The translations under genes were made by a program, and so were the position numbers. The notes under the pieces were generated by a model that was not told the DNA's origin, did no database searches, and was given only the letters and a program-made list of their open reading frames with translations. This document shows positions 1,763-44,942 of a stretch of DNA of 45,533 nt, in pieces (positions within the stretch are counted from its first letter, which is position 1; each line of letters begins with the position of its first letter). The DNA is from Alphaproteobacteria bacterium. Its GTDB lineage: Bacteria; Pseudomonadota; Alphaproteobacteria; Rhodobacterales; Rhodobacteraceae. The DNA lies in NCBI GenBank assembly GCA_030424645.1, contig JAUHWP010000009.1:1-45533 (forward strand), read 5' to 3'.

Positions 1763-3604
<1,842 letters not shown>

Positions 3605-28539: not shown

Positions 28540-29340
28540 TCAGGACGCAGCTTCCTCTCTCGCGCCTCCTGCCGAGGCCACGATAAGTCTGATATCCGCC
28601 GCTTCGATCATCGCGGCGGCGCGGTCGCTGATCCCTTCATCGGTGATCAGCACGTCGATCTGCGCCAGCGGGCACAGCACAAGGCTTGAGCGGCTTTCGA
28701 ACTTCGTCGAATCCACCAGCAAGACCAGCTCATCCGCCTGCCCGATCAACTTCTGTTCGGCCTGGATGATCAGCGGGTCCGCCTCCATCACGCCCAGCGG
28801 GGCAACGCCCTGCGCGCCCATGAACATCCGGCGGGCATAGAAATTCCGGGTCACATCATTGTCGAATGGCGACAACACGATGTTCTGTTCGCGATAGATG
28901 ACACCACCGGAAATCAGCACCGAGTTCTTCGAGTTCTTCAGCAGATGTTCGGCAATCGGGAACGAGTTGGTGAACACCTGGCACCGGCGCGTGGCCAGCG
29001 GATGCACCATCTGGAAGGTGGTGGTGCCACCGTTGATGATGATCGGGTCGCCATCGGCGCACAGATCGACCGCGGCCCGCGCGATGGCCTGCTTTTGCTT
29101 GATATTGATCGTTTCGTTGACGGCAAAGGGCCGCCCGGCCAGTCCGGGAAACGGATTGGGCGACAGGGCTTCCGCGCCGCCACGCACCCGGCGCAGCCGC
29201 TTGGCCACATGCAACGCGGCAATATCCCGGCGAATCGTCGCCTCGGACGCCCCTGTCAGGCCACATATCTCTGCCACGGTCACGACCGGCCGGTCCTGAA
29301 CCGCGGACAGAATGATCTCGTGGCGTTCCTTCTCGTGCAT
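28540..29340 (-). CDS. rhaR: DeoR-family regulator of the rhamnose genes
   Basis: A 266-residue DeoR-type repressor. The N-terminal HTH is canonical (HEIILSAVQDRPVVTVAEIC ... SEATIRRDIAAL ... RVRGGA, residues 5-60). The C-terminal sugar-phosphate sensor domain contains IINGGTTTFQM and VLLVDSTKFESRSS. ATG 29340 follows GGGAGGAATTC. In Rhizobium, RhaR represses both divergent transcripts. The concentric inverted repeats at 29386-29458 are the expected operator. Confidence 0.88.
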   Translation of the reverse strand: MHEKERHEIILSAVQDRPVVTVAEICGLTGASEATIRRDIAALHVAKRLRRVRGGAEALSPNPFPGLAGRPFAVNETINIKQKQAIARAAVDLCADGDPIIINGGTTTFQMVHPLATRRCQVFTNSFPIAEHLLKNSKNSVLISGGVIYREQNIVLSPFDNDVTRNFYARRMFMGAQGVAPLGVMEADPLIIQAEQKLIGQADELVLLVDSTKFESRSSLVLCPLAQIDVLITDEGISDRAAAMIEAADIRLIVASAGGAREEAAS

Positions 29341-29385
29341 GAATTCCTCCCGTTGATGAAAAGATTGCCGCAGAAAAACGCTCAC

Positions 29386-29458
29386 TGTCAATCATTTTTT
29401 GTCATATAAATCATGTTATCCGCATTTCATGATTGGTTTTGACTATTAATGATTGACA
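29386..29458. promoter_or_regulatory. Concentric inverted repeats in the rhaR-rhaD divergent promoter (RhaR operator)
   Basis: An outer perfect 11-bp inverted repeat, TGTCAATCATT (29386-29396) and AATGATTGACA (29448-29458), surrounds an inner perfect 7-bp one, AATCATG (29409-29415) and CATGATT (29428-29434). The two share a centre within half a base (29422.0 and 29421.5). Each outer arm contains TTGACA reading outward, a plausible -35 element for each divergent transcript. ATCAT/ATGAT half-sites recur four times. A tetrameric DeoR repressor covering both promoters would explain the symmetry. Confidence 0.65.
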
Positions 29459-29530
29459 AACAGGCCTCTCCTGCGCAGTGTTGGGTCCAATACAGACTAT
29501 TCCTTACTTGAGGATCGGGAGGAGATCACC

Positions 29531-31627
29531 ATGACATCCGCACCTACGCGGCTTGCTTCGCTTTGGGATGACGCCACGGCGGAACAGATGAGCGAAGCTG
29601 AGAAACTGCTCTATCGCTCGAACCTTCTTGGGTCTGACAAGCGGGTGACGAATTACGGCGGCGGCAACACCTCGGCCAAGGTCATCCAGCCCGATCCCCT
29701 GACCGGTCAGGAAACCGAGGTGCTTTGGGTCAAGGGGTCCGGCGGCGATGTCGGTTCGATCAGGATGGATGGCTTTGCGACGCTTTACATGGACAAGCTG
29801 CGCGCGCTGAAAGACAAGTATCGCGGTGTCGAGTTCGAAGACGAAATGGTCGGCTATCTGCCCCATTGCACCTTCAACCTGAACCCGCGCGCGGCCTCGA
29901 TCGACACGCCGCTTCACGCCTATGTGCCCCGAAAACACGTCGATCACATGCACCCCGACGCGATCATCGCCATTGCGGCGTCGAAGAACAGCAAGGCGCT
30001 GACTCAGGAAATCTTCGGTGACGACATCGGCTGGCTGCCATGGAAGAAACCGGGTTACGAGCTTGGCCTGTGGCTTGAAAAATTCTGCCTCGACAACCCG
30101 GATGCCAAGGGGGTCGTGCTGGAAAGCCACGGGCTGTTCACATGGGATGACGACGCCAAGGCCTGTTACGAGCTGACACTGGACATCATCAACAAGGCCA
30201 TCGCCTATTTCGAGGAAAAGACGGCTGACATTCCGGCGTTTGGCGGTGCGGTGCATGAACGCCTTGCCCCCGATGCACGGCGCGCTGTGGCCGCGCAGCT
30301 GATGCCCGCCATTCGCGGCCATGTGTCCGGCGCCCAGCATATGGTCGGCCATTTCGAAGACAGCGACACGGTGCTTGAATTTGTCAACGCCAGGGATATG
30401 CGCGCGCTGGCGGCGCTTGGCACATCCTGCCCCGACCACTTCCTGCGCACCAAGATCCGCCCGCTCGTGGTCGATTTCGACCCTGCCGCCAACAATATCG
30501 ACGCGGTGCTGGACGGGTTGGAGGCGCAGATCGCCGCCTATCGCGATGACTATGCCGCCTATTACGACCGCTGCAAACATGCGGACTCGCCCGCCCTGCG
30601 CGACCCCAATGCCGTGGTTTACCTGATCCCCGGCGTCGGCATGATCACCTTCGCGAAAGACAAGGCAACGGCGCGGATTTCAGGCGAGTTCTATGTCAAC
30701 GCGATCAACGTGATGCGTGGGTCGTCCGCCGTGTCCGAATATTGCGGCCTGCCGGAACAGGAAGCCTTCGATATCGAATACTGGCTGCTGGAAGAGGCCA
30801 AGCTTCAGCGTATGCCGAAGCCGAAATCGCTTGCAGGCCGGGTGGCGATCGTCACCGGCGGGGCCGGCGGGATCGGGGCGGCGACCGCGGCGCGTTATCT
30901 TCAGGAAGGGGCCTGCGTGATGCTGGCCGACATCAACGACACCGCGCTGGACGAGGTGCGCGCAGGGTTTGCCGCCCAATACGGGGCCGATATGGTGCGC
31001 TCGGTCGTTATGAACGTGACCGACGAAACCGCCGTGGCCGACGCTTACGCCTATACCTCTGTCGAATTTGGCGGCGTCGACATCCTGGTGTCCAATGCGG
31101 GCATCGCATCCTCGGCCCCGGTCGAAGACACGACGCTGGCGCTGTGGAACAAGAACATGGACATCCTGTCCACCGGCTATTTCCTGGTCTCGCGCGAGGC
31201 GTTCAAGGTCATGCGCCGTCAAGGTGTCGGTGGTTCGATCGTGTTCGTTGCCTCCAAGAACGGGCTTGCGGCGTCGATGAATGCCTCGGCCTATTGCACG
31301 GCGAAGGCGTCGGAAATCCATCTTGCGCGCTGTCTTGCGCTGGAAGGGGCCGAAGCCGGTATCCGCGTCAACGTGGTCAACCCCGACGCGGTTCTGCGCG
31401 GGTCGAAGATCTGGGAAGGCGATTGGCTGGAACAGCGCGCCGGCACCTATGGCACCGATAAGGACGGGCTGGAGGAGATGTATCGCCAGCGGTCGATGCT
31501 GAAACTGTCGGTGCTGCCCGAAGATATCGCCGAAGCGGCCTATTTCTTTGCATCTGGCCAATCGGCAAAATCGACCGGCAATATCATCAACGTGGATGCA
31601 GGCAACGTGCAGGCGTTCACCCGCTGA
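29531..31627 (+). CDS. rhaD: Bifunctional rhamnulose-1-phosphate aldolase / short-chain dehydrogenase
   Basis: A 698-residue fusion. The N-terminal class II aldolase domain (about 1-420) has the zinc-site HVDHMHPDAI and a second histidine in ESHGLF; it splits L-rhamnulose-1-phosphate to DHAP and L-lactaldehyde. The C-terminal short-chain dehydrogenase (about 435-698) has the nucleotide motif VTGGAGGIGAATA, NAG in VSNAGIAS and the catalytic SAYCTAKAS; it oxidises lactaldehyde to lactate. This fusion is characteristic of alphaproteobacterial rhamnose loci. ATG 29531 follows GGGAGGAG; an upstream TTG in frame lies inside the operator and is rejected. Confidence 0.92.
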   Translation: MTSAPTRLASLWDDATAEQMSEAEKLLYRSNLLGSDKRVTNYGGGNTSAKVIQPDPLTGQETEVLWVKGSGGDVGSIRMDGFATLYMDKLRALKDKYRGVEFEDEMVGYLPHCTFNLNPRAASIDTPLHAYVPRKHVDHMHPDAIIAIAASKNSKALTQEIFGDDIGWLPWKKPGYELGLWLEKFCLDNPDAKGVVLESHGLFTWDDDAKACYELTLDIINKAIAYFEEKTADIPAFGGAVHERLAPDARRAVAAQLMPAIRGHVSGAQHMVGHFEDSDTVLEFVNARDMRALAALGTSCPDHFLRTKIRPLVVDFDPAANNIDAVLDGLEAQIAAYRDDYAAYYDRCKHADSPALRDPNAVVYLIPGVGMITFAKDKATARISGEFYVNAINVMRGSSAVSEYCGLPEQEAFDIEYWLLEEAKLQRMPKPKSLAGRVAIVTGGAGGIGAATAARYLQEGACVMLADINDTALDEVRAGFAAQYGADMVRSVVMNVTDETAVADAYAYTSVEFGGVDILVSNAGIASSAPVEDTTLALWNKNMDILSTGYFLVSREAFKVMRRQGVGGSIVFVASKNGLAASMNASAYCTAKASEIHLARCLALEGAEAGIRVNVVNPDAVLRGSKIWEGDWLEQRAGTYGTDKDGLEEMYRQRSMLKLSVLPEDIAEAAYFFASGQSAKSTGNIINVDAGNVQAFTR

Positions 31628-31684: not shown

Positions 31685-32959
31685 ATGATCGACCCCACAA
31701 TCATCGAGGCACAGAACGCCGCCCGCACTGCCGATCTTCTACGCGACTATGACAGTCTTGGCGAAAAACTGTCACGCACCGGCATCGACATTGATGCGGC
31801 CAAGGCCCGTGCCCTGACATTTTCCGTCGCCGTCCCGTCCTGGGGCACAGGCACGGGCGGCACGCGATTTGCGCGGTTTCCGGGGGAAGGCGAGCCGCGC
31901 GACATTTTCGACAAGCTGGATGATTGCGGCGTGATCCACCGGCTGACCGATGCGGCGGGGTCCGTGTCGCTGCATATTCCGTGGGACAAGGCCGATCCGT
32001 CCGACCTGACAGCCCGCGCGGCGGAACACGGCCTGCGGTTCGACGCGATGAATTCCAACACGTTTCAGGATCAACCGGATCAGGACCGTTCCTATAAGTT
32101 CGGATCACTCAGCCACACCGATCCGGCCACCCGCGCGCAGGCGGTGGAACATAATCTTGAATGTATCGAGATCGGGCAGAAAATCGGATCGAGGGCGCTG
32201 ACCGTCTGGGTGGGTGACGGGTCCAACTTTCCGGGTCAGACCGACATGGGCGGCCAGTTCGAACGCTATCTTGCGTCGATGAAGGACATCTATAAGGCGC
32301 TGCCCGAGGACTGGCAGATCTTTTCCGAACACAAGGGCTTTGAACCCGCTTTCTATTCAACGGTGGTGCAGGACTGGGGCACATCGCTTCTGACCGCGCA
32401 AGAGCTGGGCGACAAGGCAAAATGCCTGGTCGATCTTGGGCATCACCAACCCAATGTGAATATCGAGATGATCGTGTCGCGCCTGATCCATGCGGGCAAG
32501 CTTGGCGGGTTTCACTTCAATGACAGCAAGTATGGCGATGACGATCTGGACAGCGGCACCATCGAACCTTACCGCCTGTTCCTGATCTGGAACGAACTGG
32601 TCAGCGCCGAGGATACGCCCGGACTTGATCTTGCCCATATGATCGACCAGTCACACAACGTGACCGACCCGATCGAAAGCCTGATGATCTCGGCCATCGA
32701 AATCCAGCGTGCCTATGTGCAGGCCAGCCTTGTGGACCGCACGGCACTGCACGGGTTTCAGCAGGAAAACGACGCCCTGATGGCATCGGCCACCCTGCGC
32801 GCGGCGTTTCGCACCGATGTCGACCCGATCCTGCAAATGGCCCGGTACGAGGCCGGCGCCGCCATCGACCCGGTCACGACCTATCGCGCATCCGGCTATC
32901 GCGCGCAGGTCGCGTCTGAACGCCCCAGGATCACGGGCGCAGGCGGCGGCATCGTGTGA
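31685..32959 (+). CDS. rhaI: L-rhamnose isomerase (RhaI type)
   Basis: A 424-residue TIM-barrel sugar isomerase converting L-rhamnose to L-rhamnulose. Metal-binding segments typical of the xylose-isomerase-like family are present: FSEHKGFEPAF, LVDLGHHQPN, and GGFHFNDSKYGDDDLD near residue 285. A GGGAGGATACC site precedes the ATG, and the gene follows rhaD by 57 bp. This RhaI group differs from the E. coli RhaA family. Sequence up to the GGGIV terminus appears complete. Confidence 0.92.
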   Translation: MIDPTIIEAQNAARTADLLRDYDSLGEKLSRTGIDIDAAKARALTFSVAVPSWGTGTGGTRFARFPGEGEPRDIFDKLDDCGVIHRLTDAAGSVSLHIPWDKADPSDLTARAAEHGLRFDAMNSNTFQDQPDQDRSYKFGSLSHTDPATRAQAVEHNLECIEIGQKIGSRALTVWVGDGSNFPGQTDMGGQFERYLASMKDIYKALPEDWQIFSEHKGFEPAFYSTVVQDWGTSLLTAQELGDKAKCLVDLGHHQPNVNIEMIVSRLIHAGKLGGFHFNDSKYGDDDLDSGTIEPYRLFLIWNELVSAEDTPGLDLAHMIDQSHNVTDPIESLMISAIEIQRAYVQASLVDRTALHGFQQENDALMASATLRAAFRTDVDPILQMARYEAGAAIDPVTTYRASGYRAQVASERPRITGAGGGIV

Positions 32960-33449: not shown

Positions 33450-34634
33450 ATGGCGCAGGACCGTATTGATCTTTTGGTGGGGGACCACGCCGCGCGGCTG
33501 TCCGAACGGCTTCAGGCGCATCGCGAACAGCTGTTTCCGCCCAACGCGCGCAAGGAACTGCGCAAATTCACCTCGGGCGAGGTGGCTGACCTGCTGGGCG
33601 TGAAAGACGCCTATCTGCGCAAGCTGCATCTTGAAGGGCGCGGGCCGGAACCGGAAATCCGTGCCGGTGGCCGTCGTTACTATTCGCCGCAGGACGTGCA
33701 GGCGCTGCGGGTGATGCTGGAAAAAGGGGCCAAGGCCCCCGGCACCTATCTGCCCGGTCGTCGCGACGGCGATCATTTGCAGGTCGTCACGGTCATCAAC
33801 TTCAAGGGCGGGTCGGGCAAGACGACCACATCCGCCCATCTGGCGCAGAAACTGGCGCTTGACGGATACCGTGTGCTGGCGATCGACCTTGACCCCCAGG
33901 CGTCGTTTTCCGCCTTGCACGGGTTCCAGCCGGAATTTGATCTGCTGGATGGGGGCACGCTTTACGACGCGATCCGCTATGACGACCCGGTGTCGATCCG
34001 GGACGTGATACAGCCCACCTATTTCACCAATCTCGATATCATACCGGGCAATCTTGACCTGATGGAGTTCGAGCACGACACCCCGCGCGCGCTGGCCGAA
34101 CGGTCCGGTCAGATGTTCTTTACCCGCGTTGGCGAGGTTCTGGCCGAGATCGAGTCCGAATACGACATCGTCGTGATGGACTGTCCGCCGCAACTTGGGT
34201 TTCTGACCATGTCCGCGCTTTCCGCCGCCACTGCCGTGCTGGTCACGGTGCATCCGCAGATGCTCGACGTGATGTCGATGTGCCAGTTCCTGCTCATGAC
34301 CTCGAACCTTCTGGGTGTTGTGGCCGAAGCGGGGGGCAACATGAGCTATGACTGGATGCGCTATGTCATCACCCGGTATGAACCGGGCGATGGGCCGCAA
34401 AACCAGATGGTCAGCTTCATGCGGTCGATGTTCGGCGAACATGTCCTGAACCACCCGGTCCTGAAATCCACCGCGATTTCCGATGCAGGGATCACCAAGC
34501 AAACGCTTTACGAGGTGGAAAAGGGTCACTTCACCCGCGCAACCTATGAACGCGCGATGGAAAGCCTGAACGCGGTGAACGGCGAGATCGAAACCCTGAT
34601 TCAACAAGCATGGGGACGAGAGAATGGCACGTAA
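33450..34634 (+). CDS. repA: RepA, plasmid partition ATPase and rep autoregulator
   Basis: A 394-residue ParA-type ATPase of the repABC family. An N-terminal MerR-like HTH (KFTSGEVADLLGVKDAYLRKL, about residues 39-60) for autorepression precedes the deviant Walker A motif FKGGSGKTTTSAHL near residue 118. Walker A' follows (DLDPQASFS), then Walker B (VVMDCPPQLG). It segregates the replicon with RepB. The gene is co-directional with rhaDI and overlaps repB by 11 bp. Length and domain order are normal for Rhodobacterales RepA. Confidence 0.93.
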   Translation: MAQDRIDLLVGDHAARLSERLQAHREQLFPPNARKELRKFTSGEVADLLGVKDAYLRKLHLEGRGPEPEIRAGGRRYYSPQDVQALRVMLEKGAKAPGTYLPGRRDGDHLQVVTVINFKGGSGKTTTSAHLAQKLALDGYRVLAIDLDPQASFSALHGFQPEFDLLDGGTLYDAIRYDDPVSIRDVIQPTYFTNLDIIPGNLDLMEFEHDTPRALAERSGQMFFTRVGEVLAEIESEYDIVVMDCPPQLGFLTMSALSAATAVLVTVHPQMLDVMSMCQFLLMTSNLLGVVAEAGGNMSYDWMRYVITRYEPGDGPQNQMVSFMRSMFGEHVLNHPVLKSTAISDAGITKQTLYEVEKGHFTRATYERAMESLNAVNGEIETLIQQAWGRENGT

Positions 34635-35541
34635 GGATCTGTTGAAAGGCCTGATGGAGGCCGCCCCCAAGGACGCCCCGCGCGCGGCCATGCCGCCCCG
34701 GTCTGCGAAAGGCGCCATCGGGGCTGTCAGCCAGTCGATTTCCGAGCTGCGCAACCGCGCGGTGATCGAGGTGCAGCCCGACCTGATCGACGATGCGGGC
34801 CTGAAAGACCGGTTGGATGCCGAGGACGACGGGCTTGACCAGCTGGCGGCCTCGATCCGCGACTATGGGCAGCAGGTGCCGGTGCTTCTGCGCCATTCAC
34901 CAAACGCCGAAGGCCGCTATGAAATCGTCTATGGCCGCCGCAGGGTCGCCGCGATGAAGAAACTGGGCAGGCCCGTCACGGCCATGGTGCGCGAGCTGAA
35001 CACCCGCGATCTGATCGTGACGCAGGGCCAGGAAAACGCCGCGCGCAAGGACCTGTCCTTTATCGAAAAGGCCAATTTCGCGGCGCAGATGGTCGAACAA
35101 GGCTTTGAACGCAAGGTGGTTTGCGACGCGCTGCACATCGACAAGACCGTGATTTCCCGCATGTTGTCGGTGATCGAAGCCCTGCCGCCCGCCCTTGTCC
35201 CGGCCATCGGGGCAGCACCGTCGGTCGGGCGCGACCGCTGGTTGGCCCTGGCGGCGCGGGCCAAGGGGCGCGATGCGGCACAGGTCATGGCGCTGGCGCA
35301 GGGCGCAACCTCGGACGCGCGGTTTGATGCGGTCTTCGATGGTTTGGCCCCCAAAGGCCCGCGCAAAGGTGCCTCTGCCCCCCCTGCCCCGCTGAAAAGC
35401 GCGTCTGGCAAGGTTCTGGGCGAAGCGAAAGCAACCCCCAAAGGTGCACAGATCAAACTGACCGACCCGGCATTTTCCGGCTGGCTGGTCGACAATATTG
35501 AGGAGATTCACCGGCTTTTTCTTGAGAAGCACGGCGAATAA
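34624..35541 (+). CDS. repB: RepB, plasmid partition protein (ParB family)
   Basis: A 305-residue centromere-binding protein. It begins MARKDLLKGLMEA, the N-terminal RepA-interacting start usual for RepB. The ParB/Srx domain (about 65-155) includes YEIVYGRRRVAAMKKLGRPV, then QGQENAARKDLSFIEKANFA and an HTH (VCDALHIDKTVISRMLSVIE). It should bind the 16-bp palindromes found at 35648, 37536 and 38370. The C-terminal segment (WLVDNIEEIHRLF) probably dimerises. Confidence 0.93.
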   Translation: MARKDLLKGLMEAAPKDAPRAAMPPRSAKGAIGAVSQSISELRNRAVIEVQPDLIDDAGLKDRLDAEDDGLDQLAASIRDYGQQVPVLLRHSPNAEGRYEIVYGRRRVAAMKKLGRPVTAMVRELNTRDLIVTQGQENAARKDLSFIEKANFAAQMVEQGFERKVVCDALHIDKTVISRMLSVIEALPPALVPAIGAAPSVGRDRWLALAARAKGRDAAQVMALAQGATSDARFDAVFDGLAPKGPRKGASAPPAPLKSASGKVLGEAKATPKGAQIKLTDPAFSGWLVDNIEEIHRLFLEKHGE

Positions 35542-35560
35542 CAGGCAAGAAACCCAGCAA

Positions 35561-35645
35561 AGGAGGCAGACCCCAGAAACGAAAAGACCCCCCAAGATAT
35601 GATCCCGAGAGGCCCTTCGAACTAGCACTTCTGAATCTGCCTCCT
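35561..35645 (+). promoter_or_regulatory. Long nested stem-loop in the repB-repC leader
   Basis: In the plus-strand mRNA, AGGAGGCAGA (35561-35570) can pair perfectly with TCTGCCTCCT (35636-35645). Inside it CAGAA (35574-35578) pairs with TTCTG (35629-35633), giving an interrupted stem of 15 bp that encloses the antisense RNA target. In repABC plasmids such leader structures compete with alternative folds and, with the antisense RNA, decide whether repC is expressed. The AGGAGG strand is sequestered in this fold. Confidence 0.55.
35581..35627 (-). ncRNA. Antisense control RNA of repC (ctRNA) with its own terminator
   Basis: On the minus strand, TTGACA (35657-35662) and CAGATT (35634-35639) are spaced by 17 bp and would start an RNA near 35627. 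About 13 bases later a 13-bp stem GGCCTCTCGGGAT-CAT-ATCTTGGGGGGTC (35602-35614 with 35586-35598) is followed by TTTTC. Five of the pairs are G-U, so the same stem on the plus strand would be broken by A-C mismatches: only the minus RNA terminates here. The size (about 47 nt) and location between repB and repC match the incompatibility ctRNA of repABC replicons. Confidence 0.7.
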
Positions 35646-35647
35646 CT

Positions 35648-35663
35648 GTTGACAGATGTCAAC
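35648..35663. repeat. 16-bp palindrome, copy 1 (candidate partition site)
   Basis: GTTGACAGATGTCAAC has 7-bp perfect arms and a central GA. It lies between repB and repC, the common place for the RepB-binding centromere in Rhodobacterales repABC replicons. It also contains the -35 hexamer of the antisense RNA on the minus strand, so RepB binding could affect ctRNA transcription. Two near-identical copies lie at 37536-37551 and 38370-38385. Confidence 0.65.
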
Positions 35664-35706
35664 AACGTCTTGCGGGCGAACAGAATCGTTTTGTCTGAAA
35701 ACAGTA

Positions 35707-36897
35707 ATGCAACACATTTCAACGACGCCTTTCGGGCGGCGAACGCTTGATGCTGGCCTGATGGCTGCGCGTCAGATGGCGGAAACCGCGGTTCCGGATC
35801 GCAGCATCGACAAATACAAGCTTCTGACAGCCCTGACCCAGGCCCGCGCCGCGTTCCGCGTCACTGATCGCGACCTGGTTGTCCTGTCCGCACTGGTCAG
35901 TTTTCATCAGGATCGCGAGCTGGGCGGCGATGACCTGATCGTGTTCCCCTCGAACGCCGTCTTGTCCGAGCGGGCGCATGGCATGGCGGAAAGCACCCTG
36001 CGCCGCCATCTGCGTGCGCTGGTGCAGGCCGGTCTGATCCTGCGCCACGACAGCCCGAACGGAAAGCGTTATGCCACCCGTGATGGCGCCGGCGCGCTGC
36101 GGGTCGCGTTCGGCTTCGACCTCAAGCCCCTGATCATCCGCGCGGACGAGATTTTTGCCGCCGCACGCGCCGCCCACGAGGCGGCAGAGACCCTGCGCCG
36201 CCTGCGCGAACGTGTGGTGTTGCAGCTTCGCGATGCGCGCAAGCTGATCGAATACGCGCAAGAGACCCTGCCCACTCCCGTCGATGCACTGGACGATCAG
36301 GCCCGCCTGCTCTGCCGCACCCTTCGCAGGAAGCTCGACCAGGAAGACCTGAAAGAACTTGCCGTGCAGGCGGCCGAGGTGCTGGCAATGGCTAACGCAC
36401 TCTTTCCCAACGATAAAACAGAAGAAATGAACGGCAATGACGATCAGAATGAGCGGCACATACATTATTCAACCAAAACCCTATATGAATCTGAACCTTC
36501 CAAGAAAATGGAAGAGCGCGAACCGAGTGCCCCACCCTGCCCGTCCGAAGACCGAAAGGTCGATACACAGCTTCCCTTGGGTCTTGTGCTGAAGGCAACG
36601 CCAGATCTTCGTGACTATGCGCCCGATGGCATAAAGGACTGGCACCAGTTCATCGTAACCGTCGCCTTCGTGCGTGGCATGCTGGGGATCAGCGAACACG
36701 CCTGGCTGGAAGCCTGTCGCATCATGGGGGATGTGAATGCGGCGATTTCGGTGGCCTGTATGCTGCAAAGGGCTGAACATATTGCGAAGCCCGGTGGGTA
36801 TCTCAGGGCATTGTCCGCGCGGACAGCCGATGGGCAGTTCACGCCGGGTCCGATGGTCATGGCGTTGTTGCGCGCCGAGAATGTGAAGGCGGCATAG
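35707..36897 (+). CDS. repC: RepC, repABC replication initiator
   Basis: A 396-residue RepC. The start MQHISTTPFGRRTLDAGLMA matches the family N-terminus; an in-frame ATG at 35656 lies inside the palindrome and is rejected. The N-terminal winged-helix region includes VFPSNAVLSERAHGMAESTL and RRHLRALVQAGLILRHDSPN. The middle (about 230-275) is coded by AT-rich DNA. The C-terminal domain has WHQFIVTVAFVRGMLGISEH and AISVACMLQRAEHIAKPGGYL. RepC initiates replication in cis within its own gene and its level is limited by the antisense RNA upstream. Confidence 0.93.
   Translation: MQHISTTPFGRRTLDAGLMAARQMAETAVPDRSIDKYKLLTALTQARAAFRVTDRDLVVLSALVSFHQDRELGGDDLIVFPSNAVLSERAHGMAESTLRRHLRALVQAGLILRHDSPNGKRYATRDGAGALRVAFGFDLKPLIIRADEIFAAARAAHEAAETLRRLRERVVLQLRDARKLIEYAQETLPTPVDALDDQARLLCRTLRRKLDQEDLKELAVQAAEVLAMANALFPNDKTEEMNGNDDQNERHIHYSTKTLYESEPSKKMEEREPSAPPCPSEDRKVDTQLPLGLVLKATPDLRDYAPDGIKDWHQFIVTVAFVRGMLGISEHAWLEACRIMGDVNAAISVACMLQRAEHIAKPGGYLRALSARTADGQFTPGPMVMALLRAENVKAA
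36396..36515. other. AT-rich segment in repC, probable origin of replication
   Basis: This stretch is distinctly AT-rich compared with the surrounding high-G+C coding sequence (for example ACATACATTATTCAACC). In repABC plasmids the origin lies in an AT-rich segment in the middle of repC. No iterons are visible. Confidence 0.5.
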
Positions 36898-37535
36898 GGT
36901 GGGGATCGAATGCAGGACGTGATTGCCGCCTGGCCGGGCAAACGGGACAAGACCGGAGCTGTGCATCCGGCGGTCTATCACATGCTCGATGTCGCCGTGG
37001 TGGCCGAGGTGCTGCTGGAACGCACCCCCTACCCTGCCCCGCTGCGCCATGCGCTGTGCCTCATGATCGCGCTGCACGACCTGGGCAAGATTGGCGTGCC
37101 CTTCCGGGCCATGCTGCGTAATCAGACCCGGCAGACCAAACACCGTTGGGAGATGAGCGAGGTGCTTTTGCTGCATCACGATGCGCTGCTGGCAGAGGTT
37201 CTTGGAAGTCGTTGGTCGCGCCGGGCCTATCTTTATGCGGCAAGTGCCGGGCATCACGGGCGGCCACCGACCCATGATCCGGCCGATATCCGGCTGTTGC
37301 GCGCCCTGGGGGACGAGGCCATCCGCGACAGCGCCAAGATCGTCTGCGCATTCGCCGCACTCTGGCCTGAAGCGTCGTTGGACGATCTCAGCCGCGAGGA
37401 TGCAATCGCGCTCAGCTGGTGGTTGCCGGGCTGTGTCGCCGCAGCGGATTGGATCGGATCGAACGTGGACTGGTTTCCCTTCGCCGCGCCCGATCTGCCC
37501 ATTGACGCCCATCTTGAGAAAGCCCGCGCGCGGGC

Positions 37536-37551
37536 GTTGACAGCTGTCAAC
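37536..37551. repeat. 16-bp palindrome, copy 2 (candidate partition site)
   Basis: GTTGACAGCTGTCAAC is a perfect 16-bp palindrome inside the cas3 pseudogene, 1.9 kb from copy 1. In the cas3 frame it encodes LTAVN. It shares both arms with the copy next to repC and is therefore a good RepB-binding candidate. Confidence 0.6.
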
Positions 37552-38369
37552 TCGGCCGGGTTGCACGCCCCTGCCCCGTCGGACACCACGCTGTTCGACT
37601 TTGCCCTGCGTCCCATGCAGGCCGCCGTCACCGACATCCCCCTGCGCGATGGGCCGATGCTGGCGGTGATCGAAGATGAAACCGGCGCCGGCAAGACCGA
37701 GGCCGCGCTTCTGCTGGCCCAGCGGATGATGCTGGCGGGCAAGGGAAATGGTCTCTATTTCGCCTTGCCGACCATGGCAACGGCCAGCGCGATGTTCCTG
37801 CGCGCGCGCGATGTGGTGGGCAAAATGTTTGATGACGCGCCCAGCCTGACCCTTACCCATGGCCGTGCCGCCTTGTCTGACGCGTTCCGCGACCTCGTGA
37901 TCCGCTCCACGCCGGTCACAGAAGGACCCGTATCGACCGATTGGCCGGCCGACAATAGCCGCCACGCTCTTCTGGCGATGGTCGGGGTGGGCACGATTGC
38001 TGTCCGTCCTGCCGACGAAACATGCCTGCCTGCGTCACTACGGCCTGTCGTCGAGAATCCTGATCGTGGACGAGGTGCACGAGATGGTCGAGGCTTATCT
38101 GTCCGAGGAGTTAGCCCAGTTTCTGACCGCGCATCGCCATGCCGGCGGGTCAGCGATCCAGCTGACGGCCACGCTGCCGCTGGACCAGCGCGCGACGCTG
38201 CTGGCGCGCTATGGGGCAACGGGCGATGGCGACCCGGCTGTCCGGCGCTGACCGTGGCGGGGCGCGACCGTGCGCAGTTTCGAGGCCGCCCCCCTTCCCT
38301 GCTTGGCCCGACTTCCGTTGAACGGCTGACCAGCGCCGAGGACGCCTTGTTCCCTCTGCCGGGGGTGGA

Positions 38370-38385
38370 GTTGACGGCTGTCAAC
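38370..38385. repeat. 16-bp palindrome, copy 3 (candidate partition site)
   Basis: GTTGACGGCTGTCAAC differs from copy 2 by one base and keeps the GTTGAC/GTCAAC arms. It lies in the decayed cas3 and again reads LTAVN in the first cas3 frame. No fourth copy was noticed elsewhere in the window. Confidence 0.6.
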
Positions 38386-38567
38386 TTTCCGAGGTTCGCG
38401 CGTCAGAGCACCACCTTTCCAGGCTGGACTTGCCCGGTCAGGACGCGCCTGCGATTGCCGACCTGACCACGAATTGGCCCGATTGGCGCCGTGCGCACCC
38501 TGACCGTGTGCCCGATGGATGATGCGGGTCGCATTTGCGACGCGTTGCGCTATGATCCGGCGCCGAT

Positions 38568-41810: not shown

Positions 41811-44800
41811 ATGGCCCGCTTTTTCATCGACAGGCCCGTTTTTGCCTGGGTTATCTCGATCCTCATCATGGGGGTCGGCCTGTTGTCGATCTATACGCTT
41901 CCCATTGCGCAATATCCGCAGATCGCGCCGCCATCGGTGCGGGTCAGCGCGCAGTATCCCGGTGCCTCGGCCGAGACCGTGGCTAATACGGTGACTCAGG
42001 TCATCGAGCAGCAGATGACCGGTCTCGACGGGATGCGCTATATGTCGTCGTCGTCGACCTCGGCGGGCACGTCCAACATCACGCTGACATTCGAGGCGGG
42101 AACCGACGCGGATGTGGCGCAGGTCCAGGTTCAGAACAAGCTGGCACAGGCGACGCCGTTGCTGCCGGAAACCGTCCAGAGGCTTGGCGTCCGCGTGCAG
42201 AAGGCCTCGTCGTCCTTCTTCATGGTCATCGCGCTGATTTCGGAAGATGGCGATCTGGATCAGGCGGACCTTTCCGATTATCTGAACTCGAACCTCGTGG
42301 ACGAATTCAGCCGCATCGAAGGGGTCGGCGGCGCGCAGGTGTTCGGGGCGCAATACGCCATGCGGATCTGGCTTGATCCATCGAAGCTTGCCGCTTTCGA
42401 AATGACGCCATCCGACGTGGTGAACGCGGTTTCGGCGCAGAATGCACAGATTTCGGCAGGCGCTTTCGGGACGCTGCCTGCGCCCGAAGGGCAGCAGCTG
42501 ACGGCCACCATCACGGCCCAGTCGCTGTTGTCCACGCCCGAGGACTTCCGAAATATCGTGCTGCGTTCGGAAACCGGTGGCGGACTTGTGCTGTTGAAAG
42601 ACGTGGCGCGGGTCGAGATCGGGGCCGAGAATTATTCGACCATCGCGCGGTTCGATGGTCAACCGGCGTCGGGCATGGCGCTGAACCTGGCCTCGGGGGC
42701 CAATGCGCTGGACACCGCCGAGCGGGTGAAAGAGCGGATCGAAGATTATAAACAGTATTTCCCCGAAGGTGTCAGCTATGTCATCCCCTATGACACCACG
42801 CCTTTTATCGAGATCTCGATCCACGAGGTGCAGAAGACGCTGTTCGAAGCAATCGGGTTGGTCTTCCTGGTGATGCTGCTGTTCTTGCAAAGCATCCGGG
42901 CCACGCTTATTCCGACGCTGGCGGTGCCCGTCGTCATTCTTGGCACATTCGCAATCCTGTCCCTGGCTGGGTTCACGATCAACACGCTGACCATGCTGGC
43001 CATGGTGCTGGCAATCGGGCTGCTGGTCGACGATGCCATCGTTGTCGTCGAGAATGTCGAACGGATCATGGAGGAAGAGGGGCTTTCCGCCCGCGAGGCC
43101 ACGCGCAAGTCGATGGACCAGATCACCGGTGCGCTGATCGGGATCGCCCTTGTTCTGTCGGCGGTGTTCGTTCCCATGGCGTTCTTTGGCGGTTCGACAG
43201 GTGTGATCTATCGCCAGTTCTCGATCACGATTGTCTCGGCCATGGCGCTGTCGGTTCTGGTCGCTTTGACTTTGACGCCGGCGCTTTGTGCCTCGATCCT
43301 GAAATCCAAGGATGCACATCATACGCATCGCGGGCCTTTGGGCTGGTTCAACACCGGCTTTGAGAAGGTGACGGGCGGGTATGCGGGCACGGTCGGATAC
43401 CTGATCCGTCGGCCGTTCCGTGTGCTGGTCGTCTATGCGGCGCTGGGTTACGGCATGGTTTACCTGTTTGAAAATACGCCGACCGGTTTCCTGCCCGCCG
43501 AGGATCAGGGCATATTGATGACACTGATCCAGGCACCCACCGGTGCCACCGCCGAACGCACCCAGGCCGTCGTGGAGGAAGTCGAGCGTTACTTCAACGG
43601 CGCAGAAGTCGAGAATGTGGAGTCGATGTTCGGGGTCGTCGGGTTCAGCTTTGCGGGGCAGGGCCAGAACATGGGCCTTGCCTTCATTCGGATGAAGGAT
43701 TGGGACGAACGCCCGTCACCCCAGCAGTCGGTGCAGGCGGTGGCTGGCCGTGCCTTTCCCGCCTTCATGGGGATCCGGGACGCGATGGTTTTTCCCATTG
43801 TTCCGCCGTCCGTCATCGAATTGGGCAATGTGTCCGGTTTCGACTTCTATTTGCAGGCCCAGGGTGGCCAGACGCATGAGCAGCTTCTGAATGCGCGCAA
43901 TCAACTTCTGGGGATGGCGGCGCAAAGCCCGCTTATTGCCTCGGCCCGGCCGTCCGGTCTGGAAGATGCGGCCCAGTTCGGTCTGGATATCGACTGGCGC
44001 GCAGCCGGTGCCGTCGGTGTCACGCCTGCAAGTGTGGGAACGACCCTCAATATTGCCTGGGCCGGGACATATGTGAACGATTTCAATGACAACGGTCGGA
44101 TCAAGCGTGTCTATGTGCAGGGCGAGGCCGACAGCCGTGCGACACCGTCCGATCTTCAGAAATGGCGGGTCAGAAACACCAATGGCGATCTTGTGCCCTT
44201 CGCCAACTTCACAAGCGAAAGATGGGAATATGGCCCCCAAGGGTTGAACCGTTACAACGGTGTCCCTGCGATGCAGATCCAGGGCTCGCCCGCGCCCGGT
44301 GTCACGACCGGCGAAGCGATTGCCGAGATCGAACGCCTCGTCAGTCAGCTTCCGCCGGGCTACAGCGCCGCTTGGACGGGCCTGTCGCTTGAGGAGCTTG
44401 AATCGGGTGGCTCGGCGCTTCTTCTCTACGCGCTGTCGCTGGCGGCGATCTTCCTCTGCCTTGCCGCGCTTTATGAAAGCTGGGCAATCCCGATCTCGGT
44501 CATGCTTGTCATGCCCATTGGTGTGCTGGGCACGATGGGGGCCGCTTATTGGCTGGGATTTGAAAACGGCGTGTTCTTCCAGGTCGGCCTGCTGACCGTG
44601 ATCGGGCTGACCGGCAAGAACGCCATCCTGATTGTCGAGTTCGCCCGCGAGCGTTTCGACGCAGGCGAAGACCTTTATGCGGCGGTCAAGAAGGCGGCAC
44701 GCCAGCGGTTCCGCCCCATCATCATGACATCCCTTGCGTTCACATTGGGTGTGACACCGCTGGCATTGTCCTCGGGCGCGGGCGCGGGGGGGCGGACGGC

Positions 44801-44942
44801 TGTCGGTTCGGCGGTGCTTGGCGGCACCATCACCGGGACCGTGCTGGGCATCCTGTTCGTGCCGCTGTTTTTCGTGCTTGTCGTGCGCATCGCCAATCGT
44901 GGGCGCGTGAAAGAACAGGCCGGGGCTTCGATCAGCACCTGA
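41811..44942 (+). CDS. RND multidrug efflux transporter (AcrB-like)
   Basis: A 1043-residue HAE1-family inner-membrane antiporter. The start MARFFIDRPVFAWVISILIM and the periplasmic porter domains are canonical. The proton relay aspartates lie in TM4 (AIGLLVDDAIVVVENVER), the paired lysine in TM10 (LTGKNAILIVEFAR). The end (VLGILFVPLFFVLVVR) is complete. It follows the adaptor by 22 bp. Substrate cannot be told from sequence; similar pumps export detergents, dyes and antibiotics. Confidence 0.93.
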   Translation: MARFFIDRPVFAWVISILIMGVGLLSIYTLPIAQYPQIAPPSVRVSAQYPGASAETVANTVTQVIEQQMTGLDGMRYMSSSSTSAGTSNITLTFEAGTDADVAQVQVQNKLAQATPLLPETVQRLGVRVQKASSSFFMVIALISEDGDLDQADLSDYLNSNLVDEFSRIEGVGGAQVFGAQYAMRIWLDPSKLAAFEMTPSDVVNAVSAQNAQISAGAFGTLPAPEGQQLTATITAQSLLSTPEDFRNIVLRSETGGGLVLLKDVARVEIGAENYSTIARFDGQPASGMALNLASGANALDTAERVKERIEDYKQYFPEGVSYVIPYDTTPFIEISIHEVQKTLFEAIGLVFLVMLLFLQSIRATLIPTLAVPVVILGTFAILSLAGFTINTLTMLAMVLAIGLLVDDAIVVVENVERIMEEEGLSAREATRKSMDQITGALIGIALVLSAVFVPMAFFGGSTGVIYRQFSITIVSAMALSVLVALTLTPALCASILKSKDAHHTHRGPLGWFNTGFEKVTGGYAGTVGYLIRRPFRVLVVYAALGYGMVYLFENTPTGFLPAEDQGILMTLIQAPTGATAERTQAVVEEVERYFNGAEVENVESMFGVVGFSFAGQGQNMGLAFIRMKDWDERPSPQQSVQAVAGRAFPAFMGIRDAMVFPIVPPSVIELGNVSGFDFYLQAQGGQTHEQLLNARNQLLGMAAQSPLIASARPSGLEDAAQFGLDIDWRAAGAVGVTPASVGTTLNIAWAGTYVNDFNDNGRIKRVYVQGEADSRATPSDLQKWRVRNTNGDLVPFANFTSERWEYGPQGLNRYNGVPAMQIQGSPAPGVTTGEAIAEIERLVSQLPPGYSAAWTGLSLEELESGGSALLLYALSLAAIFLCLAALYESWAIPISVMLVMPIGVLGTMGAAYWLGFENGVFFQVGLLTVIGLTGKNAILIVEFARERFDAGEDLYAAVKKAARQRFRPIIMTSLAFTLGVTPLALSSGAGAGGRTAVGSAVLGGTITGTVLGILFVPLFFVLVVRIANRGRVKEQAGASIST

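Follow-up and report, generated by a model that had tools for sequence, protein, structure and literature searches.

The 73-bp site at positions 29386 to 29458, between the divergent genes rhaR and rhaD, probably serves RhaR, a repressor of the DeoR family, as its operator. Its sequence features argue for a symmetric array of six boxes that covers the -35 elements of both flanking promoters and would switch both operons, rhaRSTPQUK and rhaDI. The window, i.e., the whole stretch of 45,533 nucleotides that was analyzed, stems from a draft genome of 3.24 Mb that is about 92% complete. The features of the locus are the following (column counts refer to an alignment of 100 related regions, counts of 145 to a wider set; both are described below).

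28540 to 29340, minus strand: rhaR, DeoR family, first gene of rhaRSTPQUK (Pfam and NCBIfam).
29347 to 29352, minus strand: rhaR ribosome-binding site GGGAGG, from the sequence; columns 29347 to 29351 are conserved in the 100-row alignment.
29362 to 29367, minus strand: predicted rhaR -10 element CAATCT, spacer 18 bp (in relatives more often 17 bp).
29386 to 29391, minus strand: predicted rhaR -35 element TTGACA, exact TTGACA in 116 of 145 regions.
29386 to 29458, no strand: putative operator of 73 bp with two-fold symmetry and its dyad at 29422 (symmetry r = 0.96 in a stack of 91 rows; span 73 in 116 of 145 regions).
29389 to 29394, plus strand: left outer box CAATCA, overlapping the rhaR -35 element; columns 29387 to 29394 at 99 to 100 of 100.
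29399 to 29404, plus strand: left middle box, here TTGTCA, with its TCA core at 29402 to 29404 (core columns 92, 98 and 95 of 100).
29408 to 29413, plus strand: left inner box, here AAATCA, 1 bp off the family position 29409 to 29414.
29418 to 29426, no strand: central element, a TGCRNYGCA palindrome in many relatives and degenerate here (alignment column counts).
29430 to 29435, plus strand: right inner box TGATTG (100-row alignment).
29440 to 29445, plus strand: right middle box, here TGACTA (TGA core columns 100, 100 and 97 of 100).
29450 to 29455, plus strand: right outer box TGATTG, overlapping the rhaD -35 element (100-row alignment).
29453 to 29458, plus strand: predicted rhaD -35 element TTGACA, exact TTGACA in 114 of 145 regions.
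29476 to 29481, plus strand: predicted rhaD -10 element CAGTGT, spacer 17 bp (C 87, A 100 and T 95 of 100).
29517 to 29523, plus strand: rhaD ribosome-binding site GGGAGGA, from the sequence; conserved columns.
29531 to 31627, plus strand: rhaD, rhamnulose-1-phosphate aldolase/dehydrogenase, first gene of rhaDI (NF006189, 1239 bits; TIGR02632, 1076 bits, over cut-off).
31685 to 32959, plus strand: rhaI, L-rhamnose isomerase (NCBIfam TIGR02629, 738 bits, over cut-off).

Left of the operator, the minus strand encodes, according to NCBIfam, RhaR, RhaS, the ATPase of an ABC transporter, two permeases, a mutarotase and a sugar kinase. RhaR contains the domains HTH_DeoR (PF08220) and DeoRC (PF00455), both over the Pfam cut-offs, and its top NCBIfam model is UlaR, with 189 bits and thus below the model's cut-off of 244 bits. 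The NCBIfam cut-offs were passed by RhaD, RhaI and RhaS; the mutarotase (96.1 versus 99.6 bits) and the kinase stayed under theirs. The names RhaT, RhaP, RhaQ and RhaK were taken from the gene order, which is as in Rhizobium.

The initial annotation of this DNA had described a concentric double inverted repeat with outer arms of 11 bp and inner arms of 7 bp around one centre. The outer arms, TGTCAATCATT at 29386 to 29396 and AATGATTGACA at 29448 to 29458, lie exactly where they had been placed and pair at 11 of 11 bases, and TTGACA indeed reads outward from either of them. When the window was searched for the arm with up to two mismatches, eight matches were obtained, and these two were the only exact ones. 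The inner arms, AATCATG at 29409 to 29415 and CATGATT at 29428 to 29434, pair at 7 of 7 bases as well, but their centre lies at 29421.5 and not at 29422, the centre of the outer arms. The offset of half a base arises because the third left box of the window is displaced by 1 bp relative to its relatives. The window's own copy is thus imperfect, with one moved box and a degenerate centre. Its concentric symmetry over 36 bp to either side (19 of 36 pairs) was equalled by 46 of 300 shuffles and is not significant, so that the evidence for the symmetric array comes from related loci.

Two sets of rha loci were used for the comparison. For the first, RhaR homologues were taken from 80 named loci, i.e., the best 80 of 547 relatives, and from 30 whole-genome loci, i.e., the best 30 places, one of which is the window; RhaR was matched at E <= 1e-60 by 48 of 198 genomes of the family. 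In all 111 loci collected up to this step, and in the window, rhaD is divergent to rhaR. After the window's two copies had been dropped, 110 regions remained, and the 100 that were kept at less than 95% similarity could be aligned almost without gaps over 29386 to 29458. The wider set added Rhizobiales plasmids and more distant genomes and contained 176 records (175 loci and the window; the loci L183 to L188 are outside all counts). In 167 of these rhaR and rhaD are divergent, while nine were excluded because a divergent rhaD neighbour was not found. Of the 167, 20 were at least 95% similar to a region already included, and the copies of the window were among these; their removal left 147 non-redundant regions.

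The two ends of the site turned out to be its best conserved parts. All 100 aligned rows have GTCAA in the left arm and TTGAC in the right arm, and the outer 9-mers TGTCAATCA and TGATTGACA are near-invariant apart from their end bases (T in 83 and A in 87 of 100) and the T with which the right 9-mer begins (88 of 100). In the wider set both anchors were found in 145 of 147 regions, the exceptions being L114 and L147. Conservation of the repeat among rha loci, on which the initial annotation had made its reading depend, was thus found in both sets. The 73-bp form also occurs in Rhizobium leguminosarum (L132) and Sinorhizobium meliloti (L133), and locus L014, the span of which was scored as 73, has two tandem copies of TGATTGAC at a distance of 10 bp. 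The operator is AT-rich: its GC content is 0.27 in the window and on average 0.35 in the relatives, versus 0.56 in the flanking intergenic DNA, and it was lower than that of the flanks in 145 of 145 regions.

The column frequencies of the 91 gapless rows of 73 bp were compared with their mirrored complements. The correlation about base 29422 was 0.96, while the runner-up centre reached only 0.48. Within each arm the autocorrelation was highest at a lag of 10 (0.58 on the left and 0.67 on the right, the maximum of lags 3 to 19 in both arms), and direct repeats with a period of 10 to 11 bp are thus present, as can also be seen from the cores of the window. In the family, TCA cores lie at 29392, 29402 and 29412 and TGA cores at 29430, 29440 and 29450, each of them in a CAATCA/TGATTG-like box, and a cTGCR-N-YGCAg element is centred on the dyad in the 100-row alignment. 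The window has the same cores except that the third one is at 29411, so that one step is 9 bp. All six cores were in place in 42 of the 91 rows and at least five in 87. The inner and middle boxes of the left arm are looser than their cores: the left inner core at 29412 to 29414 is found in 82, 85 and 85 of 100 rows, and a full CAATCA within one mismatch is present in 52 of 91 rows at the left inner and in 39 of 91 at the left middle box. The higher conservation of the outer boxes can be explained by their overlap with the -35 elements. The geometry given by the initial annotation was therefore right, but it lacked the middle boxes at 29402 and 29440 and the period of 10 bp, and it did not include the central palindrome of the relatives or the -10 elements.

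The outward -35 elements that had been proposed for the outer arms are supported by the comparison, because a CAnnnT motif, the predicted -10 element, often follows them at a distance of 17 to 18 bp. Of the 145 regions, 85 have it on the rhaD side and 90 on the rhaR side; 75 have it on both sides, 100 on at least one and 45 on neither. All remaining spacings between 8 and 27 bp gave 0 to 6 matches, except that spacing 8 gave 13 on the rhaD side. In the window TTGAC and a -10 element at 17 to 18 bp are present on both sides, which makes it a predicted divergent sigma-70 promoter pair. A sigma-70 scan of the window based on TATAAT yielded no promoter, as the TATAAT rule misses the CAnnnT element that becomes visible by comparison.

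The exact 11-bp arms and the low GC content could also be accounted for by an RNA hairpin, i.e., a terminator or a leader, or by a chance palindrome in AT-rich DNA. The hairpin was dropped, since the repeat lies upstream of both predicted -10 elements and neither transcript should contain it; in addition, there was no Rfam match at the gathering threshold and no terminator-like site was found. When the 190-bp intergenic region was shuffled with its dinucleotides kept, 3 of 1000 shuffles contained an 11-bp inverted repeat that was free of mismatches and lay within 80 bp, as did 2 of 1000 shuffles of the AT-rich 86 bp, and chance is opposed by the retention of both anchors in nearly all non-redundant regions. 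Hairpin and chance together are regarded as extremely improbable. The idea of FNR- or CRP-like sites, which was weighed by eye only, was dropped as well.

The length of the operator was determined from anchor to anchor for the 145 regions. The span was 62 bp in one region, 63 in three, 72 in eight, 73 in 116, 74 in four and 75 in one; longer spans were 81 (one), 83 (one), 84 (two), 94 (three), 95 (four) and 98 bp (one). The lengths thus cluster close to whole helical turns, at 62 to 63, 72 to 75, 81 to 84 and 94 to 98 bp, and not a single span of 64 to 71, 76 to 80 or 85 to 93 bp was seen among the 145 regions. The 17 spans outside 72 to 74 bp had a concentration of 0.78 at a period of 10.5 bp, although the single spans of 75, 81 and 98 bp match whole turns poorly. 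In the 12 operators of at least 81 bp the 58 TCA/TGA positions stay in phase with each other (R = 0.72 for a period of 10.5 bp). A maximum-likelihood tree of RhaR was calculated with 82 rows, which included each of the 16 that do not belong to the seven-turn class and some of the others. At least eight changes among the four turn classes are required on this tree. The seven-turn label changes at least seven times when only well-supported branches are counted, and the six-turn class accounts for four changes, or three with well-supported branches only. As several branches are weak and some are long, all these counts are approximate.

Each arm could also be an operator in its own right, bound by a separate RhaR oligomer, in which case the dyad they share would reflect only the mirrored promoters. 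In favour of this reading, the ula region of Escherichia coli described below has its cores near each gene and no single shared array. The reading would also fit the tolerated lengths of 72 and 74 bp and three loci (L135, L144 and L172) in which the left end and the palindrome are still some 36 bp apart although the whole is longer by one turn, so that the extra turn is one-sided. However, two separate arms would not be expected to keep a length of exactly 73 bp in 116 of 145 regions and to avoid all the lengths between the clusters, and they would not need symmetry in the 10 bp that directly adjoin the dyad on either side. The fixed length, the single dyad and the near-whole-turn changes together favour one phased complex, because an array of proteins that keeps to a single face of the helix would have to change its length in such steps. 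Two independent operators are thus considered unlikely.

The specificity of the array was analyzed with a strict arm pattern, TCAATCA-N7-TCA-N6/7-TCA, in 16 of the 48 matching genomes of the family, including that of the window. The pattern was present in 16 of 16 genomes, and by their coordinates 26 of 26 matches lie between rhaR and rhaD; a reversed control pattern had no match in the same genomes. Weaker sites would be missed by this search, and the incomplete draft state of the window's genome also has to be considered for its result. The exact four-box core, TCA-N7-TCA-N15-TGA-N7-TGA, was found in eight of the 16 genomes, in seven at rha and in one (G133) elsewhere. It was not found in the genome of the window, where one box is shifted by 1 bp. 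Among the 145 regions, 59 have the core with the inner gap N15 and 94 with N25, which pairs the outer and middle left boxes with the inner and middle right boxes. N25 is more common because the left inner box is often inexact.

The central element needs a separate consideration. Its TGCRNYGCA palindrome differs in sequence from the boxes and could be the site of a second regulator, or a distinct core contact of RhaR, while the boxes would be RhaR sites. In distant clades, where the CAATCA boxes fade, the palindrome occurs in two or three copies spaced by about 21 bp, as in L113, L115 and L155, which have three between outward -35 elements. These three loci are among those with the longest operators, and their middle palindrome is at or near the dyad. 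In seven of eight distant genomes a pair exactly 21 bp apart was detected, at 12 distinct places in total. Four of these are away from rha, and the sole exact pair of one genome (G582) is among them, which speaks for such a separate role. Against this, eight of the 12 places are at rha. The predominance of this locus indicates a locus-specific reader, most simply RhaR itself, and a separate role of the central element is judged improbable.

As the best family model of RhaR is UlaR, the ula locus of E. coli K-12 was chosen for comparison. RhaR and UlaR are identical at 84 of 254 positions (33%) over nearly their full length. In the ulaG-ulaA region the exact four-box core occurs three times, at 3139 to 3179, 3149 to 3189 (overlapping) and 3371 to 3411 of L209, and single matches with N5 and N25 are built from the same boxes. 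None of 200 shuffles of the 4.5-kb ula locus reached three cores, and none of 5000 shuffles of positions 3111 to 3480 held even one. On the ulaG side six boxes follow the 10-bp period within each arm. A matrix was built from 232 two-box units of rha, and in a scan of the 4.5 kb two E. coli sites ranked at the top with 17.6 and 17.2 (rha mean 16.5). The runners-up, with 12.7 and 11.5, lie outside the ulaG-ulaA intergenic region, and the top score was attained in 1 of 500 shuffles of that region.

UlaR is reported to be tetrameric on DNA, with Asp206/Lys209 as effector residues (PMC10991401). These residues align with D210 and K213 of RhaR, of which D210 is nearly invariant and K213 invariant in 53 sequences. 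As at rha, divergent sugar operons and a local DeoR repressor are combined at E. coli ula, and its four-box core is the one that 59 of the 145 rha regions have in exact form. In contrast to the compact 73-bp array ending in both -35 elements, the ula cores are about 200 bp apart, and ulaR is located off the shared region while rhaR borders its own. Formation of a loop with IHF has been proposed for E. coli ula. The targets listed for UlaR are ulaR/ulaG/ulaABCDEF (PMC8249747). Judged from the sequence, the site is a further form of the UlaR/RhaR-type DeoR operator, compact and with both predicted promoters integrated at its ends. In the PDB, a search with the single RhaR sequence had no match at E <= 0.01, while the RhaR profile matched one chain only, 7l6l, a 186-residue piece of the deoxyribose operon repressor from the sensor region; by these sequence and profile searches no solved DNA complex of this repressor family was found.

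Motifs of DeoR-type RhaR regulators have been predicted earlier for four taxonomic groups as two imperfect direct repeats with a period of 10 to 11 bp (Rodionova et al. 2013, PMC3870299). The Rhizobiales regulon, represented by R. leguminosarum and S. meliloti, has a homologous RhaR, the same two transcripts and also the 73-bp operator, but by the text description its motif consists of two-box direct repeats (PMC3870299), in contrast to the six-box palindrome including both -35 elements described here. The RhaR of Chloroflexus aurantiacus is likewise a DeoR-family rhamnose repressor on a tandem array. It differs in its box sequence, four TCGAAA sites in 38 bp that were verified by EMSA (PMC3870299), in its sites being tandem as described and not mirrored, and in its target, one rha operon of nine genes. 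In EMSA it was L-rhamnulose, and not rhamnose, that released this repressor from its sites (PMC3870299). The six-box palindrome, the built-in -35 elements and the whole-turn steps were not found described in the literature, which is a weak negative, the subscription literature being mostly uncovered.

From these features we infer RhaR binding, the oligomer number, the inducer, the filling of both arms at the same time and not one by one, and the points where transcription starts, as follows. The six CAATCA/TGATTG-like boxes, three per arm, are one turn apart and hence all on one face of the DNA, and the outermost boxes overlap the predicted -35 elements of the outward promoters of rhaR(STPQUK) on the left and rhaD(I) on the right. 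Without rhamnose, RhaR would occupy the array and keep sigma-70 RNA polymerase off both -35 elements. It would probably bind the four inner boxes as a tetramer, and its contacts would extend from there to the two outer ones; the number of protomers is a guess. An intermediate of rhamnose bound to the DeoRC domain would then free RhaR, and both operons would start together. As rhaR is the first gene of its operon, the switch would also control its own repressor. Some leak on the rhaR side would be needed for continued synthesis of the repressor.

The initial annotation had suggested that one repressor complex switches rhaRSTPQUK and rhaDI at once, and the conservation, the dyad and the promoter elements point in the same direction. 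In R. leguminosarum RhaR is a negative regulator, and cosmid-borne fusions of rhaP and rhaD were inducible by rhamnose, 6.7- and 5.4-fold in Rlt100 (PMC9025865). The same source reports that rhaRS is transcribed without inducer in this species, and thus repression on the rhaR side is not complete. The switch that had been proposed is probably right in the main, while strict symmetry of its function has to be tempered. The rha operators provide a precise prediction, i.e., six boxes, one dyad and one-turn steps, together with natural length variants, and the site offers a compact two-way promoter pair for alphaproteobacteria that would be inducible by a sugar via a single repressor.

A more far-reaching reading can be put forward only tentatively, namely that a phase-locked RhaR array bridges the opposed promoters and has been resized by whole turns, from six to nine, and that UlaR and RhaR share an ancestral four-box unit. 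If this were true, the protein would have to keep to a single face of the helix between the two -35 elements, and a whole branch of the DeoR family would read DNA by one mirrored 10-bp box code.

Four loci from bins titled Oceanospirillales or Granulosicoccaceae (L046, L052, L079 and L080) encode a RhaR that is 76 to 78% identical to that of the window, which reflects either gene transfer or mis-binned contigs. Near the rha genes, at 33450 to 36897, a repABC-type replicon with a ParA-like protein, RepB and RepC was detected with Pfam, and the window is therefore probably plasmid DNA. Directly after repC, at 36910 to 38466, there is an open reading frame of 518 amino acids in which the Pfam scan recognized a single domain, the Cas3 HD nuclease domain (PF18019, E = 9e-26). 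Further downstream, at 41811 to 44942, lies a gene for an AcrB-type RND efflux pump that covers almost the whole Pfam model.
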